Part shown: in pieces, positions 38,183-43,781 of the stretch
Layout: each line of letters opens with the position of its first letter
How positions within the stretch are numbered: position 1 is the stretch's first letter
From: Fragilariopsis cylindrus CCMP1102
Taxonomy: Eukaryota; Bacillariophyta; Bacillariophyceae; Bacillariales; Bacillariaceae
Assembly: GCA_900095095.1 (NCBI GenBank)
Contig: FMBT01000290.1
Location: forward strand, 1 to 64,000
Direction of reading: 5' to 3'
Length of the DNA: 64,000 nucleotides
Notes under the pieces: generated by a model
Database searches by the model: none
What the model was told of the DNA's origin: nothing
What the model saw: only the letters and a program-made list of their open reading frames with translations
Translations under genes and position numbers: made by a program

Positions 38183-39622
38183 TTAAGGTGGCCAGACTAG
38201 TAGAGCGGCTAACTCTGTGTTGGGGTGAAGTCTGACTTGAGGATATGCATCCGCAACCGAAGCGAGCTGGTTCGTATTGCTGTTGCTCTTGTTCTTCGAC
38301 CGAAGTATATCAATAAAAGTCCAGAAAGAATCTTCGTCATTGTCATCAATATTGTTACATTGCATGTTGCGTCGAATGGCATACGCTAGGGCGTTGTCAC
38401 CACAGTACCGCACATTATATTCGATATCCTTTTCGGATAAAGCCCAATGCCAAATGGTGGTACCAGCATTGTCATTTTCTTTCCCAGTAGTAGTACTAGT
38501 ATCCGTGGTAGTGTATCGTTCCATAAGACCATTCCACAGCATCTTTAGGGAACCTGCTTGAGTATCCATTGGCCAGATATACTCTCTAGCTGAAGTCAAG
38601 GCCAACATCACAAAACCTTCGTGCCAAAAATTCCGATTCCGATTTAGACCCAAATATGTTTGAGAGTTTGGTAAGTTGTTGTATCCAAATCCATCCTTAT
38701 CATCGAGTAAATCGTTACAGGTTGTTTGGATGAGATGAATAATTCGGTCCATCTCATCTTTGTTTTCGCTTTCGTTTTCTTTACTATCCAGTAGTTGCAA
38801 GTGCTGCAAGCATGCTAGAACCGCTAAGGCCTGATCGACTGCTCGGTAGTATGTTGTGTTTGTTGATGAAGATTCTGTGGTTCGCGTTGTAGCACCGCTG
38901 CTGGCTGATGGACGAAGTAATGTTCCGTAACCCTGGGTGCGGCTGATTGTCGTCCATCGATGCCCATTCCAAAATTCATCCACGAATTGTTTCGCAATAG
39001 TAGATTGCTGAGAACGAATTTTCGAACTATTTTCCTTAACGTTATTGTCGTCTTGCTGCGCTAGTATGGACCAAAATACCAGTGCAATGGCGTGTTGTAC
39101 GCATCGATGTTCCGGTGATTCCTTGTAATAGTTAGCTTGTACTATATCGGTGTCTGGTAGTTGTAGTCGAGAATGGTCCCAATTCCCACTCCATATTCTT
39201 CGACGAAATGAAGTACCATCCCATGAGTATCGAAATAAGGAATCGGCAATACGAATCGCGTCATCATAAAGATGCTGATTTTGATTCACACGATGTACAC
39301 GTAGTCCAGCGATGCCTGCCATACAATTATGCCAAACGCCTTCTGAGTACAAGCCTGTACTGTCGTCATAAAAATCAGTTTCAAGATCGAGGAGATGAGA
39401 AGTAGAAGAAGAAGTACCGGTATCAGTATTAGCATTGGCACTACTGCTAGAAGACTGAAGACCTTCCAAAATTTCTTGTGACACCCTAACCCGATACGCG
39501 TTTCTTGATGATGACGATGCGTGTTGCAACGCGTCTACTCTGGTCACCAACAAAACAAGGCTGATTCCACTTGCCAACCATCCGAGTCGTCGAAGATAGA
39601 CGCGTTTCTCTATACAATACAT
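38183..39622 (-). CDS. Secreted conserved protein, probable alpha/alpha-toroid fold, 479 aa
   Basis: An N-terminal signal segment (RRLGWLASGISLVLLVTRVD, then ALQHASSSS) is followed by a Ser/Thr-rich spacer and a helical domain of about 380 residues. Repeated helix-pair signatures with aromatic residues suggest an (alpha/alpha)n barrel as in several glycoside hydrolase families and epimerases: EGVWHNCMAGIAGLRVHRVN, RIADSLFRYSWDG, CVQHAIALVFWSILA, RAVDQALAVLACLQHLQLL, RNFWHEGFVMLALTSAREYI, WHWALSEKDIEYNVRYCGDN, ALAYAIRRNM. I cannot assign a family or catalytic residues. Conserved-looking WHNC, VDQAL and WHEGF motifs lie where a toroid pocket would be. The start ATG 39622 gives the signal peptide directly. 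The presequence has no clear F at the cleavage site, so secretion rather than plastid import is favoured. Intact single exon. Confidence 0.65.
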   Translation of the reverse strand: MYCIEKRVYLRRLGWLASGISLVLLVTRVDALQHASSSSRNAYRVRVSQEILEGLQSSSSSANANTDTGTSSSTSHLLDLETDFYDDSTGLYSEGVWHNCMAGIAGLRVHRVNQNQHLYDDAIRIADSLFRYSWDGTSFRRRIWSGNWDHSRLQLPDTDIVQANYYKESPEHRCVQHAIALVFWSILAQQDDNNVKENSSKIRSQQSTIAKQFVDEFWNGHRWTTISRTQGYGTLLRPSASSGATTRTTESSSTNTTYYRAVDQALAVLACLQHLQLLDSKENESENKDEMDRIIHLIQTTCNDLLDDKDGFGYNNLPNSQTYLGLNRNRNFWHEGFVMLALTSAREYIWPMDTQAGSLKMLWNGLMERYTTTDTSTTTGKENDNAGTTIWHWALSEKDIEYNVRYCGDNALAYAIRRNMQCNNIDDNDEDSFWTFIDILRSKNKSNSNTNQLASVADAYPQVRLHPNTELAALLVWPP

Positions 39623-40190
39623 TGTGTTGTAGCATCAAGTAAACAGATGTTGTGACTAGCTTCTTGGTACTGAATACTGATAGTAATAGAATAATACTTG
39701 TTATTATACTCTTGTGTTGCTAGATTCAAGATTCAAGATATCGTATTCAAGATTGAAGATTGAAGATTATGTACCAGTACGATGACATCCGTGACTAGAA
39801 AAAAGTCGAGTCGTGCTCAAGTACATGCAAATAATGCACACGTTTTTTTTTTAAATCATATATAATTAATATGTTGTCTATACTGTACTAATATATTATA
39901 ATGGCATTGTTTAGTAGTCATGGAAATGTACGAATCGTCTGTATCGTCGACATCATTATGCAATCAAGAAATAAGATAGTAAAATACTATAATTCTTTGA
40001 CAACAAAACGGTGCGTCATTCTGCATACTTTTCACAAAATCAATGAATAATCAATGCGGTCGGTTAATACAACAACATATCCGAAATTAACTGAATAAAA
40101 ATAGGTAAAATATGAAATTCTTCACATTCACAAATATTATATATCCGATATATACCATACATACATCCTTCCTCTGTTTATATTCTGGAT
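39623..40190. other. Intergenic, 3' flank of the TGA-containing gene
   Basis: Holds degenerate ATTCAAGATT/GATTGAAGATT repeats at about 39722-39767 and a T run at 39843-39852. Its 40190-to-39700 direction is where a SECIS element would be expected for the minus-strand gene at 40191-41285. No convincing SECIS core was found by eye. Confidence 0.5.
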
Positions 40191-41285
40191 TTATAGGATA
40201 GACCATCCCAAACTAGTCATTGATAATACTAATAAAGACAAAGTATTGGAAAAAGAGTTAAAATTGGAAGAGGAAACATAGCTACCCACATTCTCACTAA
40301 CGATTGGCACTGGAGCAGTTGCCATAGGAGGGGCAGGATCAGAATCTTCTGGAGTAGCAATAGTAGTATTGCTGTCATCAGGAAGAGATGGTTCTACCAA
40401 ACTAGTAGTTACATTGCCTGTTTCATCATCTTCAACTTCAACTACTTCTACTTCTACTTCTTCTGTAACTGATAACATTTCACGAATGGTATCGTCAAAT
40501 TCAGCATTGTTTGTATTCATCGAATAGCGACAATAATATTCCCAATTATCATCGTCGTTCTTTATGTAAAAATAAACATCCCTCTGGTTTGCACCCCAAG
40601 ACGTCCACCACGGACTAAGGGCTTCGTCGTGACATGTAGCAAAACCTTTACAAAAATTCGAGTCTAAGTCACTGAAACTCTCCATTCCAACGGAAAGTAG
40701 GAAGACTCTGTCTTGTTCTTCCTCCGTAAGACCGTTGTATGCGCTGGCTATAATTCGATTCAAAATCCAAAAATTGTTTTGGGTTAGAAAACAAGTCCGA
40801 GAATTTTCTCAAAAATTCCATCTACAATTTGTAAAATGTAACACTTACCCATGATACCCACCATGCCAACGCACCCTAATGAGAAAGAAAAATAGGAATA
40901 GTTGATAAAATATTGTTAGTACAATATATTTGCAATTAATGCATAGCATATATTTCTCTTGACAGCGCCCATTCTCAGCAAGTATGTGATTGCACGACTA
41001 ACCTCCTCAGTTTTGATGTCCAAAATATAAAGCAGCCACGTCATATTTACTGGCTTCAACATCGTTTGTTAAAACACCTGGACCGACTAATCCTGCTGGA
41101 CCGTCGGCGCAAGAATTTTGGCAGGTAAAATCGAATGGTGGCGCATCGATTTCAAGGGTTGTGGGACACGACGGAGAATCGGCATTCACTACGCCAGCTT
41201 TCGTCGACTGTTGAATTACAAAAAGTGAGGCCGTTAACAACAGCGCTGCAATAGCACTATCACCGCATTTACTAGTCACCTTCAT
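40191..41285 (-). CDS. Secreted, possibly GPI-anchored protein, 3 exons, with in-frame TGA (candidate selenoprotein)
   Basis: Exons 41285-41003, 40875-40849 and 40747-40191; donors GTTAGT and GTAAGT, both acceptors AG. The joined frame is 289 codons with one internal TGA at codon 93 (41009-41007). A signal peptide (AIAALLLTASLFVIQQS) leads, then a Cys-containing lumenal domain (SPSCPTTLEIDAPPFDFTCQ, NSCADGPAGLVGPG). Around the TGA the sequence is YFGHQN-TGA-GGCVGMVGIMASAYNGL, with the codon set as U-x-x-C. Conserved-looking sequence continues beyond it: SDLDSNFCKGFATCHDEALS, PWWTSWGANQRDVYFYI. The C-terminus is a Thr/Pro/Glu-rich spacer plus a hydrophobic tail (FSNTLSLLVLSMTSLGWSIL), as in GPI anchoring. 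Alternatives: TGA in place of an ancestral Trp codon, or an earlier donor (A|GTAAAT at 41050) that would skip it in phase. Confidence 0.7.
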
Positions 41286-41823: not shown

Positions 41824-43781
41824 ATGATGAGAGTGTTATTCGAAATACCACTGCAGTTGGTGCTATTGTTGGTTGTAGTGTTCCAGCCTATTATCGTTCG
41901 AGCATTCTCCCCACAAAGTGGGCGGTATGTGATACCGAACTTCTCCTACCTGAAAGCTGGCGGCGATGAAAACAACAATATTAATGGGGATAAAATTTCG
42001 ACGGAAATCAACAACGTTCACAACGATGACGACGACGACGACGACGATGTCGATGACAATAAAAACATCAACGATGATAAAAGTCTGCTAGATCAACTAT
42101 CATTCGCTGCTTCACTTATAAACAAAAACAAATCAAAGTTATCGACTCCCTATAATAAGAAACAAATTCCTCTATCGGCAATACCGGACCAAAAGGTCAA
42201 ATTTAATCGTCTTAGCAGTGGTGAAGACGATGAGAATAAACGCAAAATGGATCTTTTGTGGTGTCAAAGTGACAGGTGTCAGGAGTCGGTAAGAGAAAGG
42301 GTGGTTGGGGATCACAACACCATCATATTTAACGGACCTGCTACGGGGCAGATTGCATATAGATGGAATCGAAAGGCTCATCCTATCGACCGCGAGGAGT
42401 CATCTACATCGTCGGCAAGGAATAACGAGGAAAAAACTACTACTACTTCAGGTACGGGACCATTGCCATTGTCTAGGATAGCATCCGTTCTACTTTTAGT
42501 GAAACGTGACGATGAAGATTTACTAGAAATTGCTGCTAGAAACGTCCCTAAACTTACTGAGGTTGGAATCGATGTGCTGTTATCGCCTGACTTGGCGGCT
42601 AAACTGAAACATTATTACGGTGTAGACGATGAACGAATATCTCTCTTTGAACAGCCAAGAGATCCCAATGAGGATGAATGGAGAATACGACACGTCGATG
42701 ACGAAGAGGAAGCTTGGGTTCAAGATATGAATTACGTAGAACCTTTCCCTGATTTGGTTGTTACGTTAGGCGGTGACGGGTTGCTAATATATGCATCGAT
42801 GCTCTTTCAGGGACCAATACCACCACTGTTGGCAATAAGTGGTGGGAGTTTGGGATTCTTGACATCTTTTTCTGACCTTGAGATGACAGATGCAATCAAA
42901 GTAGCGTTGGGTATGGTAACATCGTCGTCGGAGAATGGTGAAAGTTCCGACGAATCGTTCGAGGAGGAGCAGGAGAATAATGCACTACAAGTGTTTCCAC
43001 CAAACATGCCATATAAACTACCTTATATAGACGTCGGTGATTCAACGCCACGATCTACTTTTGGTTTTGAAGACTTTATTTGTATGACAATTCGGATGAG
43101 ATTAGATTGTAGAGTCGTCAATCGAGAAGGGGTAGTCCGTGCTCGATACAATGTATTGAACGAAGTTGTCATCGATCGGGGCAGTAGTCCGTACCTATGC
43201 GCATTAGAATGTTTCTGCGATGATGTGCATTTAACAACAGTTCAGGCGGATGGAGTGATATTTGCAACGTAAGTCACTAGCTAACCTTAGCGAGGTAGCG
43301 AAGAAGAGAAGAAACTATGTTATATCTTGTGTCTCTTTCTCACCGCGGTCCATTGTTCCTCTTTTTTTCTGCTACCATTTGTTCTGTTTTCGACTGAAAA
43401 AAAAACAGGCCATCGGGATCCACTGCGTATAGTATGGCAGCTGGTGGATCTGTGGTCCACCCTGCCGTTCCTTGTATTTTAGTAACACCGATTTGTCCAC
43501 ACGTATTAAGTTTCCGTTCTATGGTCTTTCCAGATCACGTCGTATTGAGATGCTTCGTTCCTGATGATGCCCGATCTACTGCCTCGGTGGCTTTTGATGG
43601 CAAACAACGATGTGAATTGCAGCGAGGTGATAGCGTTCAAATTCAGATGAGTGCATATCCCGTTCCGACGATCAATAAAGGAGACCACTCGTCGGATTGG
43701 TTAGAGAGCTTGAAACGAAGCTTTAATTTCAACACAAGACCGAGACAAAAACCTCTACCGAAACAAAAACCTCTATCATAG
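41824..43781 (+). CDS. NADK: NAD kinase, plastid-targeted, 2 exons, 605 aa
   Basis: Exons 41824-43268 and 43409-43781; donor GTAAGT, acceptor AACAG, joined frame divisible by three. The first 27 residues are a signal peptide (FEIPLQLVLLLVVVFQPIIV) that ends RAF|SPQSGRY. A Phe at the predicted cleavage site followed by a Ser/Arg-rich transit stretch is the bipartite plastid presequence of diatoms. A disordered Asp/Asn region runs to about residue 100. The NAD kinase domain holds the GGDG nucleotide-binding motif as VVTLGGDGLLIYAS, LLAISGGSLGFLTSFS, VLNEVVIDRGSSPYL, and, across the exon junction, GVIFATPSGSTAYSMAAGGS then PICPHVLSFRSMVFPD. The enzyme phosphorylates NAD to NADP using ATP, supplying NADP to photosynthetic electron transport. 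All core motifs are intact. Confidence 0.93.

Follow-up and report, generated by a model that had tools for sequence, protein, structure and literature searches.

A TGA-interrupted gene of Fragilariopsis cylindrus as a candidate selenoprotein related to a prokaryotic thioredoxin-fold family

Introduction

The accessible part of 'The algal selenoproteomes' (Jiang et al. 2020, PMC7539508) distinguishes 42 families, including 'TlpA' and 'Hypo'. An earlier study (Lobanov et al. 2007, PMC2375036) describes, in its accessible part, a selenocysteine (Sec, U)-containing 'thioredoxin-fold protein' from the diatom T. pseudonana. For prokaryotes, NCBIfam 20.0 holds the family NF053656 (redoxin_TUGYCR, 'TUGYCR motif thioredoxin fold (seleno)protein'), with a curated cut-off of 100 bits. 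Here we describe a gene of the diatom Fragilariopsis cylindrus CCMP1102 that is homologous to NF053656 and has a TGA within its reading frame; it lies on the minus strand of contig FMBT01000290.1 (GenBank assembly GCA_900095095.1). Unless another contig is named, coordinates refer to the window, i.e., the whole analysed stretch of 64,000 nucleotides (nt; positions 1 to 64,000 of the contig). The gene probably encodes a selenoprotein, with UGA codon 93 decoded as Sec by the host's eukaryotic machinery under a 3′ hairpin, the selenocysteine insertion sequence (SECIS); we put the probability at roughly 0.87. A preliminary description had already named it a candidate selenoprotein, which is now supported by its register on the family, by the Sec genes of the genome and by a SECIS-like hairpin in the 3′ flank.

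The term 'TUGYCR' did not occur in the literature searched, and a text search for NF053656 was negative in the accessible part of a review on prokaryotic selenoproteins from 2026 (PMC13188914). No description of a TUGYCR family in algae was found in the literature searched, including the accessible parts of that review, of PMC12013277 and of the two algal studies above.

Results

The in-frame TGA is in register with the Sec position of NF053656

Re-splicing reproduced the three-exon model of the preliminary description, with phase-consistent splice sites and 289 codons including the stop. The joined length of 867 nt corresponds to 288 residues plus the stop, and the TGA at codon 93 is, as had been reported, the only internal stop in the spliced frame. 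It is followed by GGA, G|GG (split between exons) and TGC, giving U-G-G-C; the U-x-x-C setting proposed earlier, with its Cys (Cys96) in a 27-nt exon, is thus correct.

Read with Cys at the TGA, the protein matched NF053656 over residues 81-194 (E = 3.9e-11, 43 bits); the homology is significant, spans the greater part of the domain and puts Sec in register. To resolve the register, we scored a 161-residue piece and nine variants against the family. Cys at the TGA position gave 44.6 bits, compared to 37.5 for Ser and 36.5 for Trp, i.e., costs of 7.1 and 8.1 bits; exchanging Cys96 for Ser also lost 7.1 bits (37.5). TCGYCR placed in register reached 52.9 bits, and 39.3 when shifted by one residue. 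The product of an alternative donor at 41050 dropped to 20.3 bits, a loss of about 24. These scores place the TGA codon at the Sec position of NF053656, disfavour Trp and indicate that the 41050 donor deletes conserved sequence. Coding downstream of the TGA is backed by homology that extends over exons 2 and 3, in agreement with the conserved-looking protein noted there before, and the stop coincides with the single codon aligning to the Sec of the bacterial family. The family, taken as secreted and not recognised as a known one in the preliminary description, is a distant relative of the prokaryotic (seleno)protein family NF053656; bacterial selenoproteins are the closest relatives known so far.

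Bacterial relatives with TGA at the same site

A DNA pattern that encodes TUGYCR, with the U as TGA, matched at least 119 sites in prokaryotic genomes and a further 34 in viral contigs. Among the matches listed, to which all of the following counts refer, 26 of 153 loci passed an open-frame filter (at least 25 codons before the TGA and at least 70 after it) and 127 failed. Four of the 26 (L091, L120, L184, L187) were dropped as dissimilar by eye, which left 22 relatives; by record title these come from Planctomycetota, Myxococcota, Gemmatimonadetes, Verrucomicrobia and other bacteria, and none of the 34 viral loci is among them. Searches of viral contigs, phages, plasmids and genome contigs with the target sequence found nothing useful.

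Mean column identity among the 22 relatives is 55%. YF-x4-UG-x-C and W-x4-RD are common to the target and all 22, and the target retains 9 of the 19 residues that are invariant across them. A profile built from the relatives alone still finds the target when the residue at the TGA is masked (24.8 bits); with Cys at this position the score is 31.3 bits, with Ser 25.4 and with Trp 24.1, and the 41050-donor product falls from 31.3 to 10.0. The preliminary description had suggested looking for Cys or TGA as opposed to Trp in homologues from other diatoms. The relatives compared here are bacterial; they carry TGA there, as imposed by the pattern, and the NF053656 profile disfavours Trp.

Some relatives have additional features. 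In L198, part of the domain seems to occur a second time, in frame and upstream of the TGA domain. Two planctomycete relatives (L104 and L155) have, by eye, Asp-rich, dockerin-like C-terminal extensions. L157 (CAMAXZ010000001.1) has a long linker of Thr/Asp repeats in its TUGYCR gene; the record is titled as a Klebsiella pneumoniae metagenome-assembled genome, a title that may be wrong.

Sec decoding in the genome

Thirteen matches to tRNA-Sec exceed the Rfam cut-off in the genome. Twelve of them form four groups of three (Table 1), several with a spacing of 163 bp, and the thirteenth is on contig C678; some of the groups may be haplotype copies of one another. An in-frame TGA was present at the expected site in genes for SPS2 (KG-U-ACK), TrxR (GC-U-G), SelT, GPX, MsrA, SELENOU and another GPX. 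L024 is the SELENOU gene (exon 1 'RRPG-TGA-VLC') and L016 a GPX gene (exon 1 'NVASK-TGA-G'). Altogether we count ten TGA-bearing selenoprotein genes, with L013 and L014 taken apart and L019/L020 taken as one. Judged by its tRNA-Sec and these genes, the genome decodes Sec.

A SECIS-like hairpin in the 3′ flank

In the candidate SECIS, the quartet TGA lies 175 nt beyond the start of the target stop codon. A scorer for AATGA, helix II, AA, helix I and GA was derived from the 3′ flanks of known Sec genes. Anchored on AATGA, the target scored 29.4; nine of the ten known Sec genes reached at least 24.9 (TrxR failed with 18.8), as did two of 38 non-Sec flanks. With full weights, the target was equalled by none of these 38; in five scorer variants, it was equalled by one at most. 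With the anchor, 0.5-1.0% of random windows (n = 2000, including the target's own region) reached the target score. Three of the 42 first controls (L024, L016 and L017) lay in selenoprotein genes and are absent from the later 38. The top-scoring supposed control had been L024, i.e., SELENOU, and L016 proved to be GPX; the scorer thus recovered previously unrecognised Sec genes. Altogether, these results lend moderate support to the suggestion that the hairpin acts as a SECIS.

Fold, domains and protein ends

The N terminus is hydrophobic (best 15-residue window, residues 10-24, mean hydropathy 2.41), and so is the C terminus (residues 273-288, 1.63), which follows a Thr/acidic stalk. From these ends we infer that the protein is probably secreted and C-terminally anchored. 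Several bacterial relatives begin, by eye, with a lipobox-like sequence, so that they and the target may share a site outside the cytosol.

Whole-protein searches of Pfam and the Protein Data Bank (PDB) gave no match, and the matches listed in a second PDB sequence search were beta-lactamases (E ≥ 0.54). The sole Pfam match of the target, Thioredoxin_8, had an E value of 0.12 and lay below the cut-off. Two domains were tried and rejected: the N-terminal domain of Selenoprotein P (SelP_N, PF04592) had no match at the target in a search of its own genome or in Pfam scans to E 10, and Thioredoxin/PDI (PF00085) matched 79 times in the genome, with none at the target, and not at all in the Pfam scans. 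A thioredoxin-like fold was computed for one bacterial relative, L099, for which a ResA-like subgroup was tied with or close to others.

Neighbouring genes

A divergent neighbour at 41824-43272 (+) matches the N-terminal domain of NAD kinase (PF01513, E = 2.7e-10). Just downstream, on the same strand as the target, lies a 479-codon open frame (38183-39622, -) that matches no Pfam family at E 0.1; if it starts at 39622, the 3′ region of the target is at most about 570 nt long.

Table 1. Coordinates of the target gene, its candidate SECIS and the tRNA-Sec groups of the genome
Feature	Position	Strand	Description
Exon 1	41003..41285	-	ATG at 41285; hydrophobic signal-peptide-like N-terminus, Cys-bearing linker, strand YDVAALYFGHQN, Sec codon, Gly
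In-frame TGA, codon 93	41007..41009	-	Read as Sec; corresponds to the U in TUGYCR
Intron 1	40876..41002	-	Donor GTTAGT at 41002, acceptor ..CATTAG
Exon 2	40849..40875	-	27 nt; proposed resolving Cys96 (TGC 40873-40871)
Intron 2	40748..40848	-	Donor GTAAGT
Exon 3	40191..40747	-	Remaining thioredoxin-like domain (W-x4-RDV), acidic/Thr-rich stalk, hydrophobic C-terminus resembling a glycosylphosphatidylinositol (GPI) signal
Stop codon	40193-40191	-	In exon 3
Candidate SECIS	39941..40028	-	AATGAC quartet at TGA 40018-40016; quartet GA 39948-39947
Candidate SECIS, helix II		-	GCACCGTTTTGTTGTC / GATTGCATAATGATGT, 3 mismatches; followed by AA, then apical stem
Candidate SECIS, helix I		-	Weak, 4 bp, GTAT/ATAC
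tRNA-Sec group	C69:253984-254395		Three matches
tRNA-Sec group	C547:25383-25794		Three matches
tRNA-Sec group	C56:120323-120828		Three matches
tRNA-Sec group	C138:53536-54004		Three matches

Discussion

The chief rival explanation is that an active-site Cys codon (TGC/TGT) was mutated or misread as TGA, which would make the gene a pseudogene, a null allele or the gene of an ordinary Cys protein. A single substitution is enough for this, and several loci of the assembly are doubled (e.g., C90/C597), but a single copy of the target was found, which leaves no second allele for comparison. However, a random stop would have to strike the one codon of 288 at which the bacterial relatives have TGA and also be TGA, exon 3 is otherwise open, and the 3′ flank has a SECIS-like element; we consider this explanation improbable. 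Less probable still is the use of the GTAAAT donor at 41050, by which the TGA would never be part of the mRNA. As the preliminary description stated, this donor is present and phase-compatible; its junction with exon 2 gives an open frame, and it matches CAG|GTAAGT at 6 of 9 positions vs 7 of 9 for the donor at 41002. However, its product lacks the conserved strand and YF-x4-UG and loses most of its match to NF053656 and to the bacterial profile. No GT or GC dinucleotide was found between 41033 and 41002, and thus no GT or GC donor removes the TGA yet keeps the YFGHQN strand.

Alternatively, the TGA could be a Trp-to-stop change, or the true stop of a 92-residue protein. TGG to TGA is a common change and the 92-codon frame is intact, but Trp at this site is penalised by the family profile, homology runs on over the two following exons, and the 22 relatives read through TGA here in conserved frames, a TGA that the pattern imposed. 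Trp-to-stop, earlier named as an alternative reading of the data, thus has very little probability left, and the same holds for termination at codon 93.

Several observations weigh against decoding of the TGA as Sec. The score of 43 bits stays below the curated cut-off of NF053656 and the target reads NUGGCV instead of the exact TUGYCR motif; the relationship is therefore homology, not formal membership, and we call the target a divergent eukaryotic relative. Its identity to the 22 relatives is 20-28%, and these are all bacterial. As the search pattern demanded TGA in all 22, their number is silent on how frequent Cys is at the site. For the hairpin, the scorer weights and AA range were fixed after the candidate had been seen, the SECIS elements of the known genes were our own picks, and for TrxR and SPS2 a different hairpin outscores the chosen one when the anchor is removed. 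Without the AATGA anchor and the AA bonus, 5.3% of random windows match the target. Helix I of the candidate has 4 bp, and its AA is paired in the minimum-energy fold. The 121-nt stretch is no more stable than its shuffled versions (z = -0.20), and for the entire 3′ region the fold is worse (z = +1.99). One earlier scanner gave a coding-region hairpin (TGA 40440) a score of 18 vs 17 for the candidate, and the same scanner, set to a narrower range for the AA, left the candidate out; for most known Sec genes, three earlier scanners returned other hairpins or none. A covariance model (R1, arms with trimmed loops) did not list the candidate either; it recovers four of its ten own training elements in place and misses six. 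Finally, the Rfam SECIS models had no match at the target locus. In a loose first look over the whole 67.9-Mb assembly, Rfam SECIS_1 found no element despite at least ten selenoprotein genes, and no Rfam SECIS was found beside five known selenoprotein loci (L013, L014, L015, L019, L021), so its absence at the target weighs little. The earlier statement that there is no clear SECIS thus holds for Rfam, and is to be amended by the SECIS-like hairpin in the 3′ region.

If UGA codon 93 is decoded as Sec by the eukaryotic machinery, directed by the 3′ untranslated hairpin, the product would be a thioredoxin-fold oxidoreductase, probably secreted and probably C-terminally anchored, with Sec as the N-terminal nucleophile and Cys96 as the resolving residue. 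UxxC thioredoxin-fold proteins follow a scheme of Sec attack and subsequent resolution by Cys. Accordingly worded for the target, the Sec selenolate would attack a disulfide or peroxide and Cys96 would resolve the selenenylsulfide; substrates could be thiols, disulfides or peroxides outside the cytosol.

Tentatively, and at somewhat less than even odds, the target may represent a eukaryotic branch of a prokaryotic selenoprotein family, for example after transfer of a bacterial gene. The active-site Sec would have been kept while the in-gene bacterial SECIS became a eukaryotic SECIS in the 3′ untranslated region, and the lipoprotein anchor would have been swapped for a GPI-like tail. If the gene does encode such a selenoprotein, algal selenium biology would gain a selenoprotein of the cell surface. 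A gene of a eukaryote would also be connected with a prokaryotic family of selenoproteins, which would offer a testable example of Sec outliving a change of the insertion system. Furthermore, the Rfam SECIS models seem to miss the elements of this organism, and selenoprotein counts from such models alone could be too low.

Compared by description only, the target resembles the algal families in the accessible parts of PMC7539508 and PMC2375036, which are likewise Sec-containing thioredoxin-like proteins. It may already be listed there under a name such as 'TlpA', 'Hypo' or 'thioredoxin-fold protein'. Towards ResA and other DsbE/CcmG-type thiol-disulfide oxidoreductases, identity is 16% for 3c73, a comparison in which the fold was the one computed for the relative L099. 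With NF053656 the target shares the thioredoxin-like domain, YF-x4-UG-x-C and W-x4-RD, and probably export; unlike that family, it belongs to a eukaryote, is split by introns, is followed by a SECIS-like element on its 3′ side and has a hydrophobic C terminus in place of the lipobox.
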